Both the position numbers and the translations under genes were made by a program. From Flavobacteriales bacterium ALC-1 (GTDB lineage Bacteria; Bacteroidota; Bacteroidia; Flavobacteriales; Flavobacteriaceae): a stretch of 64,000 nucleotides of DNA. The stretch covers positions 682,001-746,000 of the forward strand of contig ABHI01000002.1 in the NCBI GenBank assembly GCA_000171875.1, read 5' to 3'. Under the pieces are notes generated by a model. The model searched no databases and was not told where the DNA came from. It saw nothing but the letters and a program-made list of their open reading frames with translations. Positions 24,157-64,000 of this stretch are shown piece by piece (the stretch's first letter is position 1; each line of letters begins with the position of its first letter).

Positions 24157-24494
24157 AATTTTATATTTTCCATCATTGCGAGGCATTTTTTTGCCGTGAC
24201 AATTTGTTTGTTTTTAACTCTGTTCATTTGCCTTGATGCAAACGAACCAAAAATCACGATCAAAATATAGGAAATTGCTACAGCAACATTCATTTTCGGA
24301 ATTCCGTGCTTGAAGCTGCGCTTCGCATCTACATTCCTTCACTCATTATTTCTGAATTTTGATGTTCAATTCTATGAATTGATTTGGGACTAGCATTTTT
24401 TGCTTTCTATAGTCCTTAACTCTTAATTTATTTTTTTGCTAACTGCTAACTGCTAACTGCTAACTGCTAACTGCTAACTGCTAACTGCTAACTG
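24157..24494. other. Gene-free interval between the deaminase gene and kmo, rich in repeats
   Basis: About 340 bases without a gene. From left to right it holds an imperfect inverted repeat ATTGCGAGGCA / TGCCGTGACAAT (24173-24206), then a stretch (24230-24330) that resembles flavobacterial intergenic repeats (GCCTTGATGCAAACGAACC, then TGAAGCTGCGCTTCGCATC), and finally a heptanucleotide tandem array reaching the kmo stop codon. No clear promoter box for the deaminase gene is visible, so the deaminase may be read from the kmo/kynU promoter. Confidence 0.6.
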
Positions 24495-24499
24495 CTAAC
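24438..24499. repeat. Heptanucleotide tandem repeat (GCTAACT)n
   Basis: Eight perfect copies of GCTAACT followed by GCTAAC, with no mismatch over 62 bases. The right end overlaps the kmo stop codon (24495-24497), so kmo's TAG is formed by the repeat itself. A seven-base unit cannot keep frame, and stops occur on this strand, so it is non-coding. Confidence 0.95.
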
Positions 24500-25895
24500 G
24501 CAATCCAGCAATTTTATCATCTTCTAAAATCGCTTCTGTTTCTGTTTTCACTTTGTCTAAAATAGCTGTAATATCATCCTCTGTAGAAATCACACCATCA
24601 GATAGCATATTTAAAATGGCTTTGTCTTGAGCTCTTCCTCTTAACATGGCTTCTCTATAACCAATATCCTCATTAAAGGTAACTAAACTATATTTTGATG
24701 AATAATCTTCTGGAAATTTATTCTCAAGCTCCATTTCAATTTTTCGTTTTTCTTTAAAAATTGCTTGGCCAACATGACTTTTCATTTCATGAAAATTATC
24801 AACTGCTAAATCGGCAATTGCATCTGTATCTTTTTTCCTGTTTTTCTCATAAGCCTCAAAAGTAGCTTCCCAATTTTCTAAATTTTGATCGAGCACTTTG
24901 TCAAATTCAACCACATCTTCAAAAGAGGCATTCATGCCTTGTCCATAAAACGGTACAATAGCATGAGCAGAATCTCCCATTAGTAAAGTATTGCCTTTAT
25001 AATGCCAAGGAGAACATTTTACAGTGCCTAAAGGTGCTGTTGGATTTTCAAAAAAGTCTTCAACCAAATTTGGCATTAATTCTAAAGCATCAGGGAATTC
25101 CTTTTGGAAGAATTCCGTAACTATTTCTGGTGTCGTTAGGTTATTGAAATTGTATTCACCTTCATCGTAACTTAAAAATAGTGTCACTGTAAAGCTGCCA
25201 TCTAAATTTGGTAATGCTATCACCATAAAATCACCTCTTGGCCAAATATGTAAAGCGTTTTTATAAGTTTTATAGCCACCATCTTCTGCTGGAAGAATAC
25301 TTAGCTCTTTATAACCATGTGTTAAATAATCTTGTGAAAAACTAAACAGAAATTTCTTCTCCAAATAGTAACTCTTTCGTAAAGCAGAACCTGCTCCATC
25401 TGTAGCAATGATACAATCAGCATCTTCAATAAATTCATCTTTAGTATGATAATCTTTGAACAAAGCTGTGGTTTTTTCAAAATCAACGGATTTGCATTTT
25501 TTGTTGAAATGAATAGTGACATTATCGTGTTTTTCTGCTTCAGTTAAAAGTAAACCATTAAGTTCCCCTCTAGAGATAGAGTTGATATACTCGTGGTCTC
25601 TTCCGCTGTAATTAGACAGAAATGTATTACCCTCTTTATCGTGCAACATTCTGCCATTCATAGGAATACATAAGTCCTTAACTTTGTCTTCAATACCAAC
25701 AAGTTTCATTGCTTTATTACCACGGTCCGAAAACGCTAAGTTGATAGAACGACCAGCAGAAATGTCTGTACTTCTGAGATCTGGACGCATTTCGTAAACA
25801 GTAACATTGTAGCCACGTTGCCCTAGTCTTAGTGCTAATAAACTTCCGCAGAGACCTGCTCCTATGATTAGTATATTTTGTTGTTTGTTACTCAT
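24495..25895 (-). CDS. kmo: Kynurenine 3-monooxygenase
   Basis: KMO is an FAD- and NADPH-dependent hydroxylase that turns L-kynurenine into 3-hydroxykynurenine. The 466-residue length matches. The FAD motif GAGLCGSLLA lies at about 12-21 after strand ILII, the ATDGAGS motif is at about 165-171, and the second FAD block GDSAHAIVPFYGQGMNASFED is intact. The protein ends in a charged region without the long hydrophobic tail of the mitochondrial enzyme. The stop codon is supplied by the heptanucleotide repeat. It is the second gene after kynU, 112 bases downstream of it. Confidence 0.95.
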   Translation of the reverse strand: MSNKQQNILIIGAGLCGSLLALRLGQRGYNVTVYEMRPDLRSTDISAGRSINLAFSDRGNKAMKLVGIEDKVKDLCIPMNGRMLHDKEGNTFLSNYSGRDHEYINSISRGELNGLLLTEAEKHDNVTIHFNKKCKSVDFEKTTALFKDYHTKDEFIEDADCIIATDGAGSALRKSYYLEKKFLFSFSQDYLTHGYKELSILPAEDGGYKTYKNALHIWPRGDFMVIALPNLDGSFTVTLFLSYDEGEYNFNNLTTPEIVTEFFQKEFPDALELMPNLVEDFFENPTAPLGTVKCSPWHYKGNTLLMGDSAHAIVPFYGQGMNASFEDVVEFDKVLDQNLENWEATFEAYEKNRKKDTDAIADLAVDNFHEMKSHVGQAIFKEKRKIEMELENKFPEDYSSKYSLVTFNEDIGYREAMLRGRAQDKAILNMLSDGVISTEDDITAILDKVKTETEAILEDDKIAGLR

Positions 25896-54611: not shown

Positions 54612-55640
54612 TTATTTAATCAATACGCTTTTATATTTTGCTAAGTTTTTAAGTACAATTCCTGTACCTCTTACTACTGCTCTTAAAGGATCTTCTGCAA
54701 TATAAACTGGTAAATCTGTTTTCTGAGATAGACGTTTGTCTAACCCCCTCAACATAGATCCTCCTCCTGCTAAATAAATACCTGTATTATATATATCTGC
54801 AGCTAATTCCGGAGGAGTTTGAGATAAAGTCTCCATTACAGAATCTTCAATACGTAATATAGATTTGTCTAAAGCTTTAGCAATTTCGCGATACGAGATA
54901 TTTACTTGTTTAGGTTTTCCCGTGAGTAAATCACGACCTTGAACACTCATATCTTCTGGAGGTAATTCTAAGTCTTCAGTAGCTGCTCCAATTTGTATTT
55001 TAATTTTTTCAGCTGTTCTATCACCAACATACAGATTGTGCTGTGTACGCATGTAATAAATAATATCGTTTGTAAACACATCACCCGCAACTTTTACAGA
55101 TTTATCACAAACGATACCTCCAAGCGCAATAACAGCAATTTCAGTGGTTCCACCACCTATATCCACAATCATGTTTCCTTTAGGCTGCATAATATCTACA
55201 CCAATACCAATTGCTGCTGCCATAGGCTCGTGTATTAAATAGACTTCCTTTCCATTAACACGTTCACAAGATTCTTTTACAGCTCGCATCTCTACTTCTG
55301 TAATTCCTGAAGGAATACAAACCACCATACGTAATGCTGGATTGAAAAATTTCTTTTTTAAAGCAGGAATGTTTTTAATAAACAAGCTTATCATTTGTTC
55401 AGAAGCATCAAAATCTGCAATTACACCATCTTTCAATGGGCGAATAGTTTTAATATTCTCGTGCGTTTTTCCTTGCATCATGTTGGCTTCTTTACCAACG
55501 GCTATGATTTTTCCGCTGATGCGGTCTCTTGCTACTATCGATGGATTATCAACAACAACTTTGTCGTTGTGTATTATCAGTGTATTTGCGGTTCCTAAAT
55601 CAATGGCTATTTCTTCCGTTAGGAAATCAAAAAATCCCAT
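54612..55640 (-). CDS. mreB: Rod shape-determining protein MreB
   Basis: MreB is the bacterial actin that guides cell-wall elongation along membrane filaments. The 342-residue protein has the actin-fold phosphate loops: IAIDLGTANTLI (phosphate 1), IVDIGGGTTEIAVI (phosphate 2), the adenosine motif GIYLAGGGSMLRGLD, and the connecting helix IHEPMAAAIGIG. The short N-terminal MGFFDFL could be the membrane-binding amphipathic segment. It is the first gene of mreB-mreC-mreD-mrdA-rodA. The 314-base gap upstream separates it from a divergent repeat-protein gene. Confidence 0.97.
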   Translation of the reverse strand: MGFFDFLTEEIAIDLGTANTLIIHNDKVVVDNPSIVARDRISGKIIAVGKEANMMQGKTHENIKTIRPLKDGVIADFDASEQMISLFIKNIPALKKKFFNPALRMVVCIPSGITEVEMRAVKESCERVNGKEVYLIHEPMAAAIGIGVDIMQPKGNMIVDIGGGTTEIAVIALGGIVCDKSVKVAGDVFTNDIIYYMRTQHNLYVGDRTAEKIKIQIGAATEDLELPPEDMSVQGRDLLTGKPKQVNISYREIAKALDKSILRIEDSVMETLSQTPPELAADIYNTGIYLAGGGSMLRGLDKRLSQKTDLPVYIAEDPLRAVVRGTGIVLKNLAKYKSVLIK

Positions 55641-55954: not shown

Positions 55955-58900
55955 ATGATGAAAAAAAAATTACAATTTAAAACTGTGATGAAAGGTGTTA
56001 TAGCCTTATCACTCTTTTTTGTAGGTAGTCTAGAAATTACAGCTAAGAATGTTGTATTAACTAGTATTAGACCTACAACAGACATGTTAACGATTTTAGA
56101 AACAAAATCGGAAGTAAAAAATACTAATAACTCATTAATTTCTTGGCAATCTTGTACTGCTGAAGGGGGAGCTATTCAAATTGAAAATACTACTGATACA
56201 TCTACCTCAATATGTGTGGGTGAAGGTGTAGATGATTCGATTTGGGTTGAGTTTGTAGATGCGGCCGTATTATCTGGAGACAGTTCTACATGGTTAATTA
56301 CAGACAATGCAACAGGAAATATTTTGGGGGCACCAGAAACAATACCATCGGGAGGCTTTAATTTAGAAGGAGCACCTACTGGAGTATGTGATATTTGGTA
56401 TTTGCGATACACAGGAGATATAGGTTTAGGCACTGCAACTAACGTATCGGACTTAAGTGGTTGTTATGATTTTTCAAATGCAATTTCAGTGACCCGTTCG
56501 AGAGTAGATGGGGGTGAGCTTCAGATTGCAGGTACGACAGACACATCTACCTCAATATGTGTAGGGGAAGGTACAGATGATTTAATAGCAGTAGAGTTTA
56601 CAGCAGGATCAATGACAAGTGGGGCAAATGGTACTTATGTTATTACGGACCAAGCAACAGGAACGATTTTAGGATTACCAGCAGCAGGTCCATTTAACTT
56701 AGAAGGAGCACCAACAGGAGTATGTGACATTTGGTATTTACGTTATGAGGATGGTCTAACAGGATTATCAGCAGGGAATAACGTATCGGACTTAAGTGGT
56801 TGTTATGATTTTTCAAATGCAATTTCAGTGACCCGTTCGAGAGTAGATGGGGGTGAGCTTCAGATTGCAGGTACGACAGATACATCTACCTCAATATGTG
56901 TAGGGGAAGGTACAGATGATTTAATAGCAGTAGAGTTTACAGCAGGATCAATGACAAGTGGGGCAAATGGTACTTATGTTATTACGGACCAAGCAACAGG
57001 AACGATTTTAGGATTACCAGCAGCAGGTCCATTTAACTTAGAAGGAGCACCAACAGGAGTATGTGACATTTGGTATTTACGTTATGAGGATGGTCTAACA
57101 GGATTATCAGCAGGGAATAACGTATCGGACTTAAGTGGTTGTTATGATTTTTCAAATGCAATTTCAGTGACCCGTTCGAGAGTAGATGGGGGTGAGCTTC
57201 AGATTGCAGGTACGACAGATACATCTACCTCAATATGTGTAGGGGAAGGTACAGATGATTTAATAGCAGTAGAGTTTACAGCAGGATCAATGACAAGTGG
57301 GGCAAATGGTACTTATGTTATTACGGACCAAGCAACAGGAACGATTTTAGGATTACCAGCAGCAGGTCCATTTAACTTAGAAGGAGCACCAACAGGAGTA
57401 TGTGACATTTGGTATTTACGTTATGAGGATGGTCTAACAGGATTATCAGCAGGGAATAACGTATCGGACTTAAGTGGTTGTTATGATTTTTCAAATGCAA
57501 TTTCAGTGACCCGTTCGAGAGTAGATGGGGGTGAGCTTCAGATTGCAGGTACGACAGATACATCTACCTCAATATGTGTAGGGGAAGGTACAGATGATTT
57601 AATAGCAGTAGAGTTTACAGCAGGATCAATGACAAGTGGGGCAAATGGTACTTATGTTATTACGGACCAAGCAACAGGAACGATTTTAGGATTACCAGCA
57701 GCAGGTCCATTTAACTTAGAAGGAGCACCAACAGGAGTATGTGACATTTGGTATTTACGTTATGAGGATGGTCTAACAGGATTATCAGCAGGGAATAACG
57801 TATCGGACTTAAGTGGTTGTTATGATTTTTCAAATGCAATTTCAGTGACCCGTTCGAGAGTAGATGGGGGTGAGCTTCAGATTGCAGGTACGACAGATAC
57901 ATCTACCTCAATATGTGTAGGGGAAGGTACAGATGATTTAATAGCAGTAGAGTTTACAGCAGGATCAATGACAAGTGGGGCAAATGGTACTTATGTTATT
58001 ACGGACCAAGCAACAGGAACGATTTTAGGATTACCAGCAGCAGGTCCATTTAACTTAGAAGGAGCACCAACAGGAGTATGTGACATTTGGTATTTACGTT
58101 ATGAGGATGGTCTAACAGGATTATCAGCAGGGAATAACGTATCGGACTTAAGTGGTTGTTATGATTTTTCAAATGCAATTTCAGTGACCCGTTCGAGAGT
58201 AGATGGGGGTGAGCTTCAGATTGCAGGTACGACAGATACATCTACCTCAATATGTGTAGGGGAAGGTACAGATGATTTAATAGCAGTAGAGTTTACAGCA
58301 GGATCAATGACAAGTGGGGCAAATGGTACTTATGTTATTACGGACCAAGCAACAGGAACGATTTTAGGATTACCAGCAGCAGGTCCATTTAACTTAGAAG
58401 GAGCACCAACAGGAGTATGTGACATTTGGTATTTACGTTATGAGGATGGTCTAACAGGATTATCAGCAGGGAATAACGTATCGGACTTAAGTGGTTGTTA
58501 TGATTTTTCAAATGCAATTTCAGTGACCCGTTCGAGAGTAGATGGGGGTGAGCTTCAGATTGCAGGTACGACAGATACATCTACCTCAATATGTGTAGGG
58601 GAAGGTACAGATGATTTAATAGCAGTAGAGTTTACAGCAGGATCAATGACAAGTGGGGCAAATGGTACTTATGTTATTACGGACCAAGCAACAGGAACGA
58701 TTTTAGGATTACCAGCAGCAGGTCCATTTAACTTAGAAGGAGCACCAACAGGAGTATGTGACATTTGGTATTTACGTTATGAGGATGGTCTAACAGGATT
58801 ATCAGCAGGGAATAACGTATCGGACTTAAGTGGTTGTTATGATTTTTCAAATGCAATTTCAGTGACCCGTTCGAGAGTAGATGGGGGTGAGCTTCAGATT

Positions 58901-59842
58901 GCAGGTACGACAGACACATCTACCTCAATATGTGTAGGGGAAGGTACAGATGATTTAATAGCAGTAGAGTTTACAGCAGGATCAATGACAAGTGGGGCAA
59001 ATGGTACTTATGTTATTACGGACCAAGCAACAGGAACGATTTTAGGATTACCAGCAGCAGGTCCATTTAACTTAGAAGGAGCACCAACAGGAGTATGTGA
59101 CATTTGGTATTTACGTTATGAGGATGGTCTAACAGGATTATCAGCAGGGAATAACGTATCGGACTTAAGTGGTTGTTATGATTTTTCAAATGCAATTTCA
59201 GTGACCCGTTCGAGAGTAGATGGGGGTGAGATTCAGATTGCAGGTACGACAGATACATCTACCTCAATATGTGTAGGAGAAGGTACAGATGATTTAATAG
59301 CAGTAGAGTTTGTAGATCCTAATGTAGTATCAGGAGATAATTCAACATGGGTAATTACTGACCAAGCTACAGGTAATATTTTAGGCACACCTGCAGCAGG
59401 ACCTTTTAATTTGGAAGGAGCACCAACAGGAGTATGTGACATTTGGTATTTAAGGTATACAGGAGATATAGGTTTAGCAACAGCGACTAATGTATCGGAC
59501 TTAAGTGGCTGTTATGATTTATCTAATGCTATTTCAGTAACGAGATTGACAGGTACAGATTGTGATGCTCTAAGTATTGATGATTTAGATTCTAATTTTG
59601 ACTTTAATCTATATCCTAATCCAACTAATGATAGAGTTAATATAACTTATAATGGAAATGAAGCATTAGACATAAATATTCAAGTATATGATATGCTTGG
59701 GAAAGAAGTATATAATATTAAATTATCAACACAAGAGGATATGTCTTTAGATGTCAGTAACCTGGAAAATGGTACTTATTTTATGAATATCATTGACATA
59801 GTTTCTGGAAACAATACAGTAAAGAGAGTAATTAAAAACTAG
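55955..59842 (+). CDS. Large secreted repeat protein with T9SS sorting domain
   Basis: The 1295-residue protein has a signal peptide (about 1-32), ten tandem modules of about 113 residues, and a C-terminal type A T9SS sorting domain (about 1215-1295: NFDFNLYPNPTNDRVNI, IQVYDMLGKEVY, LDVSNLENGTYFM). The first and last modules differ from the rest; the eight between are almost identical. Each module has three Cys (positions 19, 74 and 100 of the unit) and phrases TSICVGEGTDD, TYVITDQATGTILG, GVCDIWYLRY and NVSDLSGCYDFSNAI. Similar modules occur in other Bacteroidota cell-surface proteins, where I know of no established function. It is probably exported by T9SS and released or anchored as an extended adhesin-like stalk. 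The gene stands between purH and mreB on the opposite strand. Confidence 0.93.
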   Translation: MMKKKLQFKTVMKGVIALSLFFVGSLEITAKNVVLTSIRPTTDMLTILETKSEVKNTNNSLISWQSCTAEGGAIQIENTTDTSTSICVGEGVDDSIWVEFVDAAVLSGDSSTWLITDNATGNILGAPETIPSGGFNLEGAPTGVCDIWYLRYTGDIGLGTATNVSDLSGCYDFSNAISVTRSRVDGGELQIAGTTDTSTSICVGEGTDDLIAVEFTAGSMTSGANGTYVITDQATGTILGLPAAGPFNLEGAPTGVCDIWYLRYEDGLTGLSAGNNVSDLSGCYDFSNAISVTRSRVDGGELQIAGTTDTSTSICVGEGTDDLIAVEFTAGSMTSGANGTYVITDQATGTILGLPAAGPFNLEGAPTGVCDIWYLRYEDGLTGLSAGNNVSDLSGCYDFSNAISVTRSRVDGGELQIAGTTDTSTSICVGEGTDDLIAVEFTAGSMTSGANGTYVITDQATGTILGLPAAGPFNLEGAPTGVCDIWYLRYEDGLTGLSAGNNVSDLSGCYDFSNAISVTRSRVDGGELQIAGTTDTSTSICVGEGTDDLIAVEFTAGSMTSGANGTYVITDQATGTILGLPAAGPFNLEGAPTGVCDIWYLRYEDGLTGLSAGNNVSDLSGCYDFSNAISVTRSRVDGGELQIAGTTDTSTSICVGEGTDDLIAVEFTAGSMTSGANGTYVITDQATGTILGLPAAGPFNLEGAPTGVCDIWYLRYEDGLTGLSAGNNVSDLSGCYDFSNAISVTRSRVDGGELQIAGTTDTSTSICVGEGTDDLIAVEFTAGSMTSGANGTYVITDQATGTILGLPAAGPFNLEGAPTGVCDIWYLRYEDGLTGLSAGNNVSDLSGCYDFSNAISVTRSRVDGGELQIAGTTDTSTSICVGEGTDDLIAVEFTAGSMTSGANGTYVITDQATGTILGLPAAGPFNLEGAPTGVCDIWYLRYEDGLTGLSAGNNVSDLSGCYDFSNAISVTRSRVDGGELQIAGTTDTSTSICVGEGTDDLIAVEFTAGSMTSGANGTYVITDQATGTILGLPAAGPFNLEGAPTGVCDIWYLRYEDGLTGLSAGNNVSDLSGCYDFSNAISVTRSRVDGGEIQIAGTTDTSTSICVGEGTDDLIAVEFVDPNVVSGDNSTWVITDQATGNILGTPAAGPFNLEGAPTGVCDIWYLRYTGDIGLATATNVSDLSGCYDLSNAISVTRLTGTDCDALSIDDLDSNFDFNLYPNPTNDRVNITYNGNEALDINIQVYDMLGKEVYNIKLSTQEDMSLDVSNLENGTYFMNIIDIVSGNNTVKRVIKN
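56504..59215 (+). repeat. Eight tandem 339-bp coding repeats
   Basis: Units start at 56504, 56843, 57182, 57521, 57860, 58199, 58538 and 58877, exactly 339 bases (113 codons) apart. The DNA is almost identical, synonymous sites included. A visible difference is the codon for Asp 13 in each unit: GAC in units 1 and 8, GAT in units 2-7. A ninth, more divergent unit starts at 59216 and a divergent leading unit ends at 56503. Confidence 0.97.
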
Positions 59843-59915: not shown

Positions 59916-61445
59916 TTAGTGCTTAAAATGTCGTGTTCCTGTAAAGACCATTGCTACATTATTGTCATTGCAATAGTTAATACTTAATTCGTCTTTTATA
60001 GACCCTCCTGGTTGGATCACAGCAGTAATGCCAGCTTTATCAGCAATCTCTACACAATCAGGGAAAGGGAAAAATGCATCACTTGCCATAACCGCTCCTT
60101 CCAAATCAAAATTGAAAGATTTTGCTTTATGAATGGCTTGGTTTAAAGCATCAACTCTGCTTGTTTGTCCTGTGCCACTTGCACATAATTGTTTGTTTTT
60201 TGCTAAAACAATAGTGTTAGATTTTGTGTGCTTACAAATTTTTGAAGCGAATATTAAATCATCTAATTCACCTGTTGTAGCAGCTGATTTTGTTACAGAT
60301 TTTAAGCCTTCTAGTGTGTCAGTAACGTCATTTCTATCTTGAACTAAAACGCCATTCAAACAACTTCTTACATTGGTTTGTGGCATGTCAATATCTTTCA
60401 ATATTAATAATATTCTATTTTTCTTACCTTTTAGAATGTCTAAAGCTTCAGCAGAAAAAGAAGGAGCAATAACAACTTCGCAGAATAGTTTATGAATTTC
60501 TTCTGCAGTTGCGATATCAATTTCAGAATTACTAATTAAAACACCACCAAAAGCCGATACAGGATCTCCTGCTAAGGCATCTATATAAGCTTGATGTAAT
60601 GTGTCACGTTGAGCTAGTCCACAAGCATTATTATGTTTTAAAACTGCAAAAGTAGGAGCATCGTTTTTAAATTCTAACATTAAATTTACTGCCGCATCAA
60701 CATCTAGCAAGTTGTTATAACTTAAATCTTTACCATGTAGCTTTGTGAAAATGCCATCAAAGTTTCCAAAGAAAAATCCTTTTTGATGTGGGTTCTCACC
60801 ATAACGCAAAACCTTGCCATTCGTTTCAGAAATTTTTAAAGACGCTATGTCATTGTTTTTATTAAAGTAATTGAAAATTGCAGAATCATAATGAGACGAT
60901 ACATTAAATGCTTTTGCTGCAAAATGTTTTCTATCATCTTCAGAAGTTTCACCATTTTTTGCTTCGAGTAATTCTAAAAATTCAGCATAATCTTCAACTG
61001 AAGACACGCAAGTGACATCAGCATAATTTTTAGCTGCAGCTCTAATTAAAGAAATGCCACCAATATCAATCTTTTCGATAATATCTTGGTTGCTTGCACC
61101 AGATGCTACGGTTTTTTCAAAAGGGTAGAGGTCAACAATAACTAAATCTATTTGCGGAATTTCAAATTCAGCTAATTCAGCCACATCTCCATCATGATTT
61201 TGACGATTTAAAATACCGCCAAAAACTTTTGGGTGTAATGTTTTTACGCGTCCACCAAGTATAGATGGGTAGGAAGTGACATCTTCAACCGGAACAACAT
61301 TAATTCCTAAATCTTTAATGAATTTTTCTGTACCACCAGTAGAATAGATGGTGACGTTAAGGTCGTTTAATTTTTTAACGATTGGTGCTAATCCATCTTT
61401 ACTAAATACAGAAATTAGTGCTGATGACATCCTTTTGTTGCTCAT
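59916..61445 (-). CDS. purH: Bifunctional AICAR formyltransferase / IMP cyclohydrolase
   Basis: PurH carries out the last two steps of IMP synthesis. The product (509 residues) has the N-terminal IMP cyclohydrolase domain (ALISVFSKDGLAPIVKKLN, STGGT, GGRVKTLHPKVFGGIL, DLVIVDLYPFE) and the C-terminal AICAR transformylase domain (LRYGENPHQKG with the key Lys/His, LKHNNACGLA, SDAFFPFPDCVE). I start it at the ATG at 61445, since a good -7 box lies at 61472-61479 inside the longer frame. It converges with the repeat protein and would lie next to mreB without it. Confidence 0.96.
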   Translation of the reverse strand: MSNKRMSSALISVFSKDGLAPIVKKLNDLNVTIYSTGGTEKFIKDLGINVVPVEDVTSYPSILGGRVKTLHPKVFGGILNRQNHDGDVAELAEFEIPQIDLVIVDLYPFEKTVASGASNQDIIEKIDIGGISLIRAAAKNYADVTCVSSVEDYAEFLELLEAKNGETSEDDRKHFAAKAFNVSSHYDSAIFNYFNKNNDIASLKISETNGKVLRYGENPHQKGFFFGNFDGIFTKLHGKDLSYNNLLDVDAAVNLMLEFKNDAPTFAVLKHNNACGLAQRDTLHQAYIDALAGDPVSAFGGVLISNSEIDIATAEEIHKLFCEVVIAPSFSAEALDILKGKKNRILLILKDIDMPQTNVRSCLNGVLVQDRNDVTDTLEGLKSVTKSAATTGELDDLIFASKICKHTKSNTIVLAKNKQLCASGTGQTSRVDALNQAIHKAKSFNFDLEGAVMASDAFFPFPDCVEIADKAGITAVIQPGGSIKDELSINYCNDNNVAMVFTGTRHFKH

Positions 61446-61471
61446 AATGTTGTGTTGTGTTTTAGATGGGG

Positions 61472-61479
61472 CAAAAATA
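61472..61479 (-). promoter_or_regulatory. -7 box TATTTTTG for purH
   Basis: Exact TAnnTTTG match on the minus strand, 26 bases before the ATG at 61445. It lies inside the frame extension to 61490 and so argues for the shorter start. Confidence 0.55.
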
Positions 61480-61589
61480 CGGATAATCAAAAAGAAAATC
61501 TTAGTGTAAAAAGCAGTTTATTTAAGTTTTTTGTAACAATAAATTGTTGAAAACGTCCTATCTTTAAATTGTTATAAAAATTGCTAGAT

Positions 61590-62843
61590 ATGCTTGTCTA
61601 TTTAAGAGTATTTAAAGAGAGTTTTTCGTTTGCACTAAATGCGCTTAGAAATAACAAGCTCCGTACATTTTTATCACTCATAGGTGTTACGGTTGGTATA
61701 TTTTCTATTATTGCGGTTTTAGCAGCTGTAGATTCATTAGATAAGAATATCAAAGATAATTTATCGGGTTTAGATAAGAATACAATATACTTGACCAAGT
61801 ACTCTTTTGGTCCAACTGAAATACCAAGATGGAAACGTGATAATTTCCCTCAAACAGAATATGATGCTTTCGATTTTATTAGGAGAAGTGTACCAGATAT
61901 TGATGCTGTGGCGTACACTATATTTGGTGGTACAGAAACTATAAGATATCAAGCGGAAACTGTTTCGGGAGTTGCAATAGATCCAGTTTCTGATGAAATT
62001 TATAAGATTAATGATTTTAAGGTAGAAAAAGGAAGGTTTTATGGTGAATCTGAATCAGAATCTGGTGCGCCAGTTATAGTATTAGGTTACACTATTGCAG
62101 AAAATTTATTTGGGGATTCTAATCCAATAGGAAAGAAAGTAAGAGCTTTTGGTAGGAAACTAACAGTGATTGGTGTAATAAAAAAGTTTGGAGCGAGTAT
62201 TTTTGACTCACCAGATGAGAGGGCCTATGTACCAGTAAATTTTGTAAGACGCTTTAGAAATGGAGGTGTTAATGGTTTGCCTGGTGCTATAATTATTAAG
62301 CCAAGTTCAGATGTTGATATATCATCTTTTGAACAAGTTTTGAAGCAAAAGTTTAGAGCTTTTCGTGGTTTAAAAGCTGGTGAAGATGATAATTTCTTTG
62401 TTAATAAAATTTCTGGGTTTGTAAGTGCAGTAGATGGTGTTATATCTGGAATGAATTTGATAGGTTGGATAATTAGTGGTTTCTCACTTTTAGTTGGTGG
62501 CTTTGGTATTGCTAATATTATGTTTGTTAGTGTTAAAGAGCGTACCAACCTCATTGGTATTCAAAAATCATTGGGAGCTAAGAATAAATTTATCTTATTT
62601 CAATTTTTATTTGAAGCCGTGATTTTAGCTATAGTTGGTGGTTTAGTTGGCCTATTACTAGTTTGGATTACTGCCCTTATAATGAATGGAGTTGTTGGAG
62701 ATAGTTTTGAATTTGTACTCTCCTTAGGAAATATGTTTATAGGATTTTGCCTATCTACTTTTATTGGATTAATTTCTGGCGTCATACCTGCAATTTCTGC
62801 TTCAAAATTAGATCCTGTTGAAGCTATTAGAACAGGCATGTAA
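61590..62843 (+). CDS. MacB/FtsX-type ABC transporter permease (copy 1)
   Basis: The product (417 residues) has an N-terminal membrane helix after NALRNNKLRTFLSLIGVTVG, a periplasmic MacB_PCD domain (about 55-270), and three C-terminal FtsX helices (about 288-410) with the conserved KERTNLIGIQKSLGAKN loop that contacts the ATPase. Such permeases in mechanotransmission ABC systems expel lipoproteins, peptides or drugs. The ATPase and membrane-fusion partner are not in the window. The ATG at 61590 matches the start of the paralogue at 62941 (MLVYLRVFKES); the earlier TTG is rejected. Confidence 0.93.
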   Translation: MLVYLRVFKESFSFALNALRNNKLRTFLSLIGVTVGIFSIIAVLAAVDSLDKNIKDNLSGLDKNTIYLTKYSFGPTEIPRWKRDNFPQTEYDAFDFIRRSVPDIDAVAYTIFGGTETIRYQAETVSGVAIDPVSDEIYKINDFKVEKGRFYGESESESGAPVIVLGYTIAENLFGDSNPIGKKVRAFGRKLTVIGVIKKFGASIFDSPDERAYVPVNFVRRFRNGGVNGLPGAIIIKPSSDVDISSFEQVLKQKFRAFRGLKAGEDDNFFVNKISGFVSAVDGVISGMNLIGWIISGFSLLVGGFGIANIMFVSVKERTNLIGIQKSLGAKNKFILFQFLFEAVILAIVGGLVGLLLVWITALIMNGVVGDSFEFVLSLGNMFIGFCLSTFIGLISGVIPAISASKLDPVEAIRTGM

Positions 62844-62940: not shown

Positions 62941-64000
62941 ATGTTAGTTTATTTAAGAGTATTTAAAGAGAGTTTTGCATTTGCTATAAATGCACTTCGT
63001 AACAATAAACTTCGTACGTTTTTATCACTTATAGGTGTAACAGTAGGAATCTTTTCTATAATCGCAGTTTTAGCCGCTGTAGATTCATTAGATAAAAATA
63101 TTAAAGATAGTTTGTCGGGTTTAGACAGTAATACTATGTATCTCGCAAATATGTCTTTTGGGCCAACAGATGTCCCAAGATGGAAACGTGAGCAGTTCGA
63201 TGAAGTTACATACGATGAATATAGGCAGTTAAAAGCCTCACTTTCTGGTGCTGAGCATGTGGCTTTTCAATTATTTGTGAGGCGTGAAAATATTAGATAT
63301 GAGTCTGAACAAGTAAGTAGTGTAAACACTGTTGTCGTATCAAACGAGTTTACAGATATCCAAGTTCTTGAGTTTGAAAAAGGACGATTTTATAACGAAT
63401 CTGAATCCAATTCGGGTAAAGCAGTCGTAGTCATTGGTTCAGAAATTGCTGAATCTTTGTTTGGTGATTTTGAGCCTATTGGTAAAAAAGTTAGGCTTTA
63501 TGGACAAAAATTCACCGTTATCGGAGTCGTTAAAAAAGAAGGTTCTGGACTTTTTGGAGATAGTAACGATATTTCTATTTTTCTACCAGCTAATTATTAT
63601 AGAAATAGATTTGGTAATAACAATCCATTTATTAAAAATATAGTTATTATCAAACCTAAAAATGGTACTGATATAGAGGGTTTAAAGGCTGATGTTGTAC
63701 AATCCATGCGCGGGAAAAGAGGTTTAAAGCCAGATGAGATTAATACATTCTTTATTAGTGTCATTTCTGGACTTAAAGATGCGATTGACGGTATAATTGG
63801 AGCGATGAATCTTATTGGTTGGATCATCAGCGGTTTTTCACTTTTGGTTGGTGGTTTTGGTATTGCAAATATTATGTTTGTGAGTGTGAAAGAGCGAACC
63901 AATCTCATTGGAATTCAAAAATCCTTAGGAGCAAAAAATAAATTTATTTTATTTCAATTTTTATTTGAAGCTGTAATATTAGCTATAGTTGGTGGTTTAG
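62941..64000 (+). CDS. MacB/FtsX-type ABC transporter permease (copy 2, partial)
   Basis: An open frame from ATG 62941 runs off the right edge after 353 codons. It is a close paralogue of the preceding gene: MLVYLRVFKESFAFAINALR, then the same SLIGVTVGIFSIIAVLAAVD helix, a divergent periplasmic domain, and WIISGFSLLVGGFGIANIMF with SVKERTNLIGIQKSLGAKN. The gap between the two genes is 97 bases. The two could form a heterodimer sharing one ATPase, which would have to be encoded elsewhere. Confidence 0.92.
   Translation, partial: MLVYLRVFKESFAFAINALRNNKLRTFLSLIGVTVGIFSIIAVLAAVDSLDKNIKDSLSGLDSNTMYLANMSFGPTDVPRWKREQFDEVTYDEYRQLKASLSGAEHVAFQLFVRRENIRYESEQVSSVNTVVVSNEFTDIQVLEFEKGRFYNESESNSGKAVVVIGSEIAESLFGDFEPIGKKVRLYGQKFTVIGVVKKEGSGLFGDSNDISIFLPANYYRNRFGNNNPFIKNIVIIKPKNGTDIEGLKADVVQSMRGKRGLKPDEINTFFISVISGLKDAIDGIIGAMNLIGWIISGFSLLVGGFGIANIMFVSVKERTNLIGIQKSLGAKNKFILFQFLFEAVILAIVGGL

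Follow-up and report, generated by a model that had tools for sequence, protein, structure and literature searches.

A near-uniform coding repeat array in a putative type IX-exported stalk protein of Flavobacteriales bacterium ALC-1

Main

How does a bacterial gene come to carry eight long coding repeats that agree almost base for base, and what kind of protein do they make? The question is posed by one gene in a 64,000-nucleotide stretch of Flavobacteriales bacterium ALC-1 (assembly GCA_000171875.1, contig ABHI01000002.1, positions 682,001 to 746,000), hereafter the window, whose own numbering is used for all window positions below. The gene lies between two housekeeping genes that we take, from their sequence, to be mreB and purH, and it encodes ten modules, of which the inner eight (type B) form a nearly uniform array, followed by a C-terminal domain of the type IX secretion system (T9SS). 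At the orthologous place the number of modules differs between species from 1 to 13 (13 unbroken arrays), and modules often have their closest relatives within their own genome. The window's array has been caught very soon after type B reached, or was evened over, eight copies. We consider it probable that the product of the locus is a secreted stalk-like protein of immunoglobulin (Ig)-like modules, itself probably attached to the cell.

Results

Eight in-frame units of 339 bp (113 codons) fill positions 56504–59215 exactly (8 × 339 = 2712), as an earlier note on the window had described. Their protein sequences are identical and their DNA varies at a single base, offset 39 of the unit, where a synonymous GAC/GAT codon gives the pattern C-T-T-T-T-T-T-C, that is, C in units 1 and 8 and T in units 2–7. 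Tandem Repeats Finder reports one array at the locus (period 339, 9.4 copies, 97% matches, 56357–59538), and 2,033 consecutive bases run without a mismatch to the base 339 further on, far beyond chance. Near-perfect identity at this period spans 56440 to approximately 59311 and is longer than eight whole units: at its start it includes 64 bp from the end of the first outer module, without a difference from the array, and at its end 96 bp from the beginning of the last outer module, with 2 mismatches. Used as a DNA query against the window's genome, the unit matches at ten places, all confined to this gene. In a scan of 80 sequences for single-distance repetition (one genome present twice; 11 of the 80 score at least 300), the window array ranks first with 2,452 compared bases at 99.92%, followed by L110 (2,366 bases at 98.6%, period 390) and L038 (746 bases at 99.6%, period 660).

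The earlier note had taken the agreement of the units, at synonymous positions too, as a sign of recent amplification or ongoing homogenisation, and both the agreement and its interpretation hold up when the units are aligned and compared with relatives. The proportion of synonymous differences (pS) is 0–0.012 among the inner eight, whereas mean pS over unit pairs, all module types included, ranges from 0.049 (G047) to 0.946 (L048) in 13 other loci with at least two units, which represent 12 genomes (G017 contributes two). The closest pair of units has a pS of 0.049–0.946 in 12 loci and of 0 in Lacinutrix (units 11 and 12). On a star model, the one-sided 95% Poisson limit on synonymous changes per site since the eight units last agreed in full is 0.0072 if one event is counted and 0.0095 if two are. 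Synonymous divergence (dS) between the window's genome and G047, the genome of the same genus with the best-matching copy, is 0.84 for mreB and 1.03 for purH. Because C stands in both end units and T in all those between, a copying event inside a multi-unit array must have followed the mutation, unless that change occurred two times. Both amplification and homogenisation have thus probably acted on the window array, in proportions that lie beyond the reach of one genome.

The orthologous place was compared across 68 genomes of the window's genus, presumably Winogradskyella, with the window's own genome as G000. Both mreB and purH were found in 67 of the 68 at E ≤ 1e-100 (G046 has neither). Counted by hand from the coordinates, the gene is present in 7 of these 67: the window's genome, G047, W. 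tangerina (G067), G036, G066 and two metagenome bins (G017 and G044) in which it is split over contigs inside the array. In 59 of the 67 the gap between mreB and purH is only 114–487 bp, too short for the gene, and in G055 a gap of 649 bp holds a remnant of it. The gene also stands beside mreB in Lacinutrix, Algibacter, Flaviramulus, Jejuia and Hyunsoonleella; it adjoins mreB in 15 genomes, two of them with arrays broken at contig ends. The unbroken arrays within the genus have ten modules in the window, two in G047, three in G036, one in G066 (frameshifted) and five in W. tangerina (L052). In the other genera there are 13 modules in Lacinutrix (L041), three in each of three Algibacter loci (L042, L046 and L047), two in Flaviramulus (L044), seven in Jejuia (L045) and eight and five in Hyunsoonleella (L049 and L051). 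The two-module orthologue of G047 (L027, 5000–6169) carries two in-frame stops and is likely a recent pseudogene. At any chromosomal place, relatives of the module occur in 16 of the 68 genus genomes, and 487 stretches of public genomes encode them; the analysis went on with the best 80, which make up 72 loci. Most of these 72 carry names of members of the Flavobacteriaceae or Saprospiraceae, the families to which we take the named genera to belong.

In a tree of 65 modules from orthologous loci (IQ-TREE), all modules of one genome form a single clade in 5 of the 13 genomes with at least two modules in the tree (L046, support 99; L047, 100; L052, 98; L061, 100; G047, 100). Amplification or homogenisation has therefore recurred. 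Seven neighbouring pairs of inner units in Lacinutrix have pS of 0–0.25 and a proportion of nonsynonymous differences (pN) of 0.004–0.016; as pN is far below pS, these modules look to be under purifying selection.

The outer modules, W_0 and W_9, have a DNA identity to the inner units of 73% and about 80%, and the earlier note had regarded them as drifted copies. This does not fit the tree, in which both group with type A modules of other species at a branch support of 100. Judged by this clustering and by their array-like edges, both are chimeric versions of an older type of module (A) and not drifted inner copies. The placement of type B in the tree is unsettled (supports 63 and 34). In pairwise DNA comparison, type B is 78–82% identical to most Lacinutrix inner modules (only 65% to Lacinutrix module 6), 75% to the last Flaviramulus module and 73% to the last module of Algibacter L042, and approximately 60–71% identical to type A modules of other orthologous loci. 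At the protein level the matches are 88% in Lacinutrix, 81% in Flaviramulus and 77% in Algibacter L042. Because of these likenesses, and because both sorts occur within one gene in L042 and in L044, the two module sorts probably predate the genus, and we conclude from the sequence comparison that both outer modules became chimeric through exchange between registers. We also considered whether the inner module had passed horizontally from one to the other of the window lineage and Lacinutrix, and rejected this as not needed, because the inner units of the window and of Lacinutrix (units 2–5 and 7–12) differ by a dS of 0.78–1.25 and a nonsynonymous divergence (dN) of 0.088–0.103, near the values for purH (dS 1.44, dN 0.098) and mreB (dS 1.30, dN 0.041), all near saturation. 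The limits of the head deletions described below differ too.

How far the unit count can be trusted depends on the assembly. The earlier note had warned that short-read assemblies may misjudge such arrays, and rightly so: among the 72 fetched loci, 20 have the array within 120 bp of a contig end, the metagenome bins G017 and G044 included. The window's assembly consists of 8 contigs of 54–1212 kb, and the array lies inside a 1.03-Mb contig. Two copies of the large subunit (LSU) rRNA lie inside contigs C5 and C8 and are identical over 2,026 comparable bases beside runs of N, so the assembly has probably bridged long identical repeats, which supports the unit count without proving it. A model of the small subunit rRNA had no match in the window's genome, an uninformative result as the LSU neighbourhoods hold runs of 2,500 and 5,000 N, which we take to be masking.

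Searched against Pfam, a single unit matched no family at E ≤ 1, and no family was found in more than 5 of 85 module rows (set A2) at E 0.01. PF21602 exceeds the whole-protein score only by summed fragments, no single one of which passes, and a Pfam repeat family for the 113-residue module was rejected for want of a convincing match. Among NCBIfam models run on the protein, the C-terminal domain alone passes its cut-off. We regard the module family of Flavobacteriaceae and Saprospiraceae as uncatalogued. A structure prediction of two tandem units is confident (predicted local distance difference test (pLDDT) 95.6, predicted template modelling score (pTM) 0.80) and places the same strands in each unit, predicting that the repeats are separately folding domains. 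Foldseek and VIA-align matched the two-unit model to tandems of fibronectin type III (Fn3), cadherin and Ig domains, including 3pdd in Foldseek (E 7.8e-5, TM 0.35) and 3shs (Z 7.7, root-mean-square deviation (rmsd) 5.0, 176 aligned) and 7ok5 (Z 7.6, rmsd 4.0, 167 aligned) in VIA-align. Tandems from titin, neurofascin and Hoc can be superposed on the model from end to end (Z 7.1–7.7, rmsd 4.0–5.0), where Z below 8 is weak. We read the module as an Ig-like beta-sandwich, chained end to end, with scores of this size not fixing the family.

The C-terminus matches PF18962 (E 3.6e-15, 56.4 bits, cut-off 27) and TIGR04183 (E 6.9e-12, 45.2 bits, cut-off 23), and the window's genome encodes a T9SS PorU-type sortase (NF033707, 1,380 bits, cut-off 420), the only T9SS component searched for. 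The ORF (open reading frame) is unbroken over 1,295 codons, with a hydrophobic N-terminus and the sorting domain both in place. According to passages of PMC12618676, type A substrates use the PorV shuttle and may end attached or released. The protein had been called a T9SS surface protein in the earlier note: the T9SS type A domain is above both cut-offs, and a surface location of the protein is only likely, as type A substrates can attach or be released.

Ten aligned orthologues have an intact N-terminal head of approximately 140 residues before the first module. The window and G047 keep approximately 40 of these residues and Lacinutrix fewer, with different deletion limits; as these limits differ, two separate losses of the head are probable, one in the lineage of the window and G047 and one in Lacinutrix. 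The head of G066 is present but frameshifted. Nine of the ten heads match PF00932 (lamin tail domain) at E ≤ 1, the best at 1.9e-4, and the bit scores shown for two members (18.0 and 20.9) are below the cut-off of 34.3. The head model has a pLDDT of only 60.5, and a fold search with it placed a metallopeptidase at the top and then lamin chains, which make up much of the top, at E > 0.05, a hint only. A profile of the head found no match anywhere in the window's genome at E 1e-10. The two longest arrays, with 10 and 13 modules, are both headless. However, G047 is headless with two modules in a dead gene, which weakens the association, and a link between head loss and array length is suggestive at best.

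Discussion

The proposed course of events is as follows. Unequal homologous exchange of the RecA type, or slippage, would change the number of units, and the protein would be exported through Sec and then the T9SS. The Ig-like modules may together make an extended rod, its length set by the number of units, and cells with rods of different lengths might then differ in reach or surface coverage. As the N-terminal head is gone in this species, the array itself is likely the working part, whether as spacer, shield or many-handed binder.

Several observations count against this picture. The rod shape rests on prediction, with known tandems at Z below 8 and a query-normalised TM of at most 0.37 among the rows listed, and passages of PMC12618676 indicate that type A substrates may also go into the medium. 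The gene is missing from most of the genus (the 59 of 67 genomes above), is dispensable and often decays, as the stops in G047, the frameshift in G066 and the remnant in G055 attest. Turnover is not always fast: modules are not a single clade in 8 of the 13 genomes, two or more old module types persist per gene in the window, L041, L042, L044, L045 and G017, and the modules of the two Hyunsoonleella species (L049 and L051) interleave in the tree. Close single pairs like those of the window also occur elsewhere, in Lacinutrix units 11 and 12, and also in L108 and L051, both of which have approximately 340 identical bases at one period. Finally, one genome per species was compared, and gene conversion and fresh duplication are inseparable from one genome.

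This last point bears on the explanation that gene conversion keeps an old array uniform, with no recent amplification. The presence of the C variant in units 1 and 8 and in none of the six that separate them needs copying within an existing array, or the mutation twice, and the single-clade modules of 5 of the 13 genomes would also follow from conversion. Yet conversion would need to have wiped out almost every change here and not elsewhere, given the mean pS of the 13 other loci and the pS of up to 0.25 between neighbouring inner units of Lacinutrix, and we regard an array maintained by conversion alone as rather unlikely. Slightly less credible still is a decaying gene that has lost its head, whose array would be a neutral by-product of recombination and whose protein would have no important role. 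The deletion of the head in the window, the pseudogenes or remnants in G047, G066 and G055 and the many genomes without the gene all suit such decay, but the window ORF is intact, hydrophobic N-terminus and sorting domain included, and the other long headless array, the 13 modules of Lacinutrix, keeps pN far below pS between its inner units. We give the least credence to an assembly artefact, in which the true unit number differs and the assembler inflated or trimmed the array. Arrays of this gene family do break assemblies, as the loci at contig ends and the bins split inside the array attest, but here the array is interior to a 1.03-Mb contig, the two identical LSU rRNA copies were placed in different contigs, and C at both ends with T within is not expected from the simple copying of one consensus. 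A secreted stalk-like protein with a freshly multiplied or evened array thus remains the reading that we prefer.

The nearest known systems are the Periscope Proteins (SasG, Rib and Sgo_0707), as presented in parts of PMC8201768 and PMC9704523. The window protein resembles them in its long, near-identical DNA repeats that code for tandem folded domains of a secreted protein, and in a repeat number that varies between related genomes (here between species), for which intragenic recombination is the proposed motor. Unlike them it has a T9SS type A C-terminal domain in place of a sortase anchor or autotransporter, and it lacks the N-terminal functional domain that is part of how the class is introduced, with only a remnant of approximately 39 residues. 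Our best reading is that the protein works like the Periscope Proteins, yet we stop short of counting it among them, since it lacks the N-terminal functional domain, its repeat variation is seen between species only and its rod shape is only predicted. The main texts of PMC8201768 and PMC9704523 contain no word beginning with "Bacteroid" and no "type IX". Stalk proteins with the same T9SS C-terminal domain family are known as fibrillar-adhesin-like proteins, and passages of PMC8286594 report 124 proteins that combine stalk modules with this C-terminal domain family, mostly from Bacteroidetes. These were found, as we understand the portions of PMC8286594 concerned, through known adhesive or stalk Pfam domains, whereas the window module has no convincing Pfam match. 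A stalk with a T9SS domain is thus not new in kind; the T9SS-borne form without a head and with freshly multiplied modules is a variant of it. Other relatives in the uncatalogued module family have more diverged units, and the eight near-identical units of the window are the extreme of the 80 sequences scanned. The gene itself was not found described in literature searched by titles and abstract starts, a weak negative as subscription journals are poorly covered.

Grappling hook protein A (GhpA) of Aureispira (solved fragments 9fly, 9fls, 9flu and 9flx) is likewise a very large bacterial protein of tandem beta-sandwich modules, and 9fly aligns with the two-unit model at Z 7.1 and rmsd 4.3 over 158 positions. 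A relation was rejected: the likeness is at the level of the fold only, with a Z tied with those of unrelated Ig and Fn3 tandems. A profile search of PDB sequences gave no GhpA chain among the matches listed up to E 1, although absence of the family from structure lists excludes nothing. Aureispira is, we assume, a member of the Bacteroidota.

A bolder reading, which we hold only tentatively and think improbable on balance, though less so than any of the alternatives weighed above, is that of a headless, T9SS-exported, length-variable stalk: after the probable double loss of the head the array would have become the working part and grown to 10 and 13 modules, type B-like modules multiplying each time. 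The tree speaks against it in so far as it leaves unsettled whether the inner modules of the window and of Lacinutrix are one type. If this is true, the Bacteroidota would have a counterpart of the Periscope Proteins in which selection acts on length itself and not on the presentation of a tip.

As far as the consulted parts of PMC8201768 and PMC9704523 go, most descriptions of proteins whose length varies through recombination of near-identical repeats concern human-associated bacteria, and the anchors are of the sortase or autotransporter kind. Here the same design is coupled to a different export machine and keeps one chromosomal place, flanked by housekeeping genes, in all stages from 13 modules to a remnant. 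Turnover of the array is thus measurable by species comparison, and the question of the role of a headless stalk is raised. For draft genomes and metagenome bins, unit counts of this family are untrustworthy unless long reads span the array.

Sequence features and additional observations

Table 1 Features of the repeat gene and its surroundings in the window
Feature	Position	Strand	Basis
ORF, 1,295 residues, with a hydrophobic N-terminal stretch, a short remnant of the head, ten modules and a T9SS type A C-terminal domain	55955..59842	+	
Probable signal peptide, approximately residues 1–30	55955..56044	+	Read by eye from the translation
Head remnant, approximately 39 residues	56045..56161	+	Comparison with orthologues
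Outer module W_0 (type A), last 64 bp as array	56162..56503	+	Sequence comparison
Near-perfect period-339 identity, full extent	56440..59311	+	Period comparison
Eight 339-bp units (type B), one variable synonymous base	56504..59215	+	Tandem Repeats Finder, period comparison, DNA search
Outer module W_9: first 96 bp as array with 2 mismatches, remainder type A	59216..59554	+	Sequence comparison
T9SS type A sorting domain, residues 1219–1292 by PF18962	59609..59830	+	PF18962, TIGR04183
mreB (presumed), conserved neighbour marking the orthologous place	54612..55640	-	ORF; used as query
purH (presumed), other-side neighbour in most genomes seen	59916..61490	-	ORF; used as query

The surroundings of the gene vary in some relatives. 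In one Algibacter (L042) and two Hyunsoonleella (L049 and L051) the repeat gene is separated from purH, or from the limit of the fetched stretch, by at least 3.6 kb of extra DNA; purH is approximately 4.0 kb further off in L042 and approximately 3.7 kb in L049, and it is outside the fetched stretch in L051. Further along the window, 61581–62843 and 62941–64000 hold two adjoining similar genes, presumably for ATP-binding cassette (ABC)-type permeases, which are paired also in several relatives.

Repeats of other kinds were seen in passing. L110 (5346–8101), from an uncultured Flavobacteriaceae, is the long near-identical array of a related module that came second in the scan, and L038 (5472–6877; G048, another Winogradskyella) holds a 660-bp higher-order repeat of two alternating modules in a frame of 915 residues. 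The module of the window also stands in tandem in probable lipoproteins elsewhere in Winogradskyella genomes (L035, L036, L039 and L040), read as such by eye from a hydrophobic start followed by Cys and an Asp-rich stretch. In the window itself, the heptamer TGCTAAC occurs in nine perfect copies at 24437–24499, at the 3' end of the minus-strand ORF 24495–25895, whose stop codon lies within the nearest copy, and a change in copy number would leave its frame intact.

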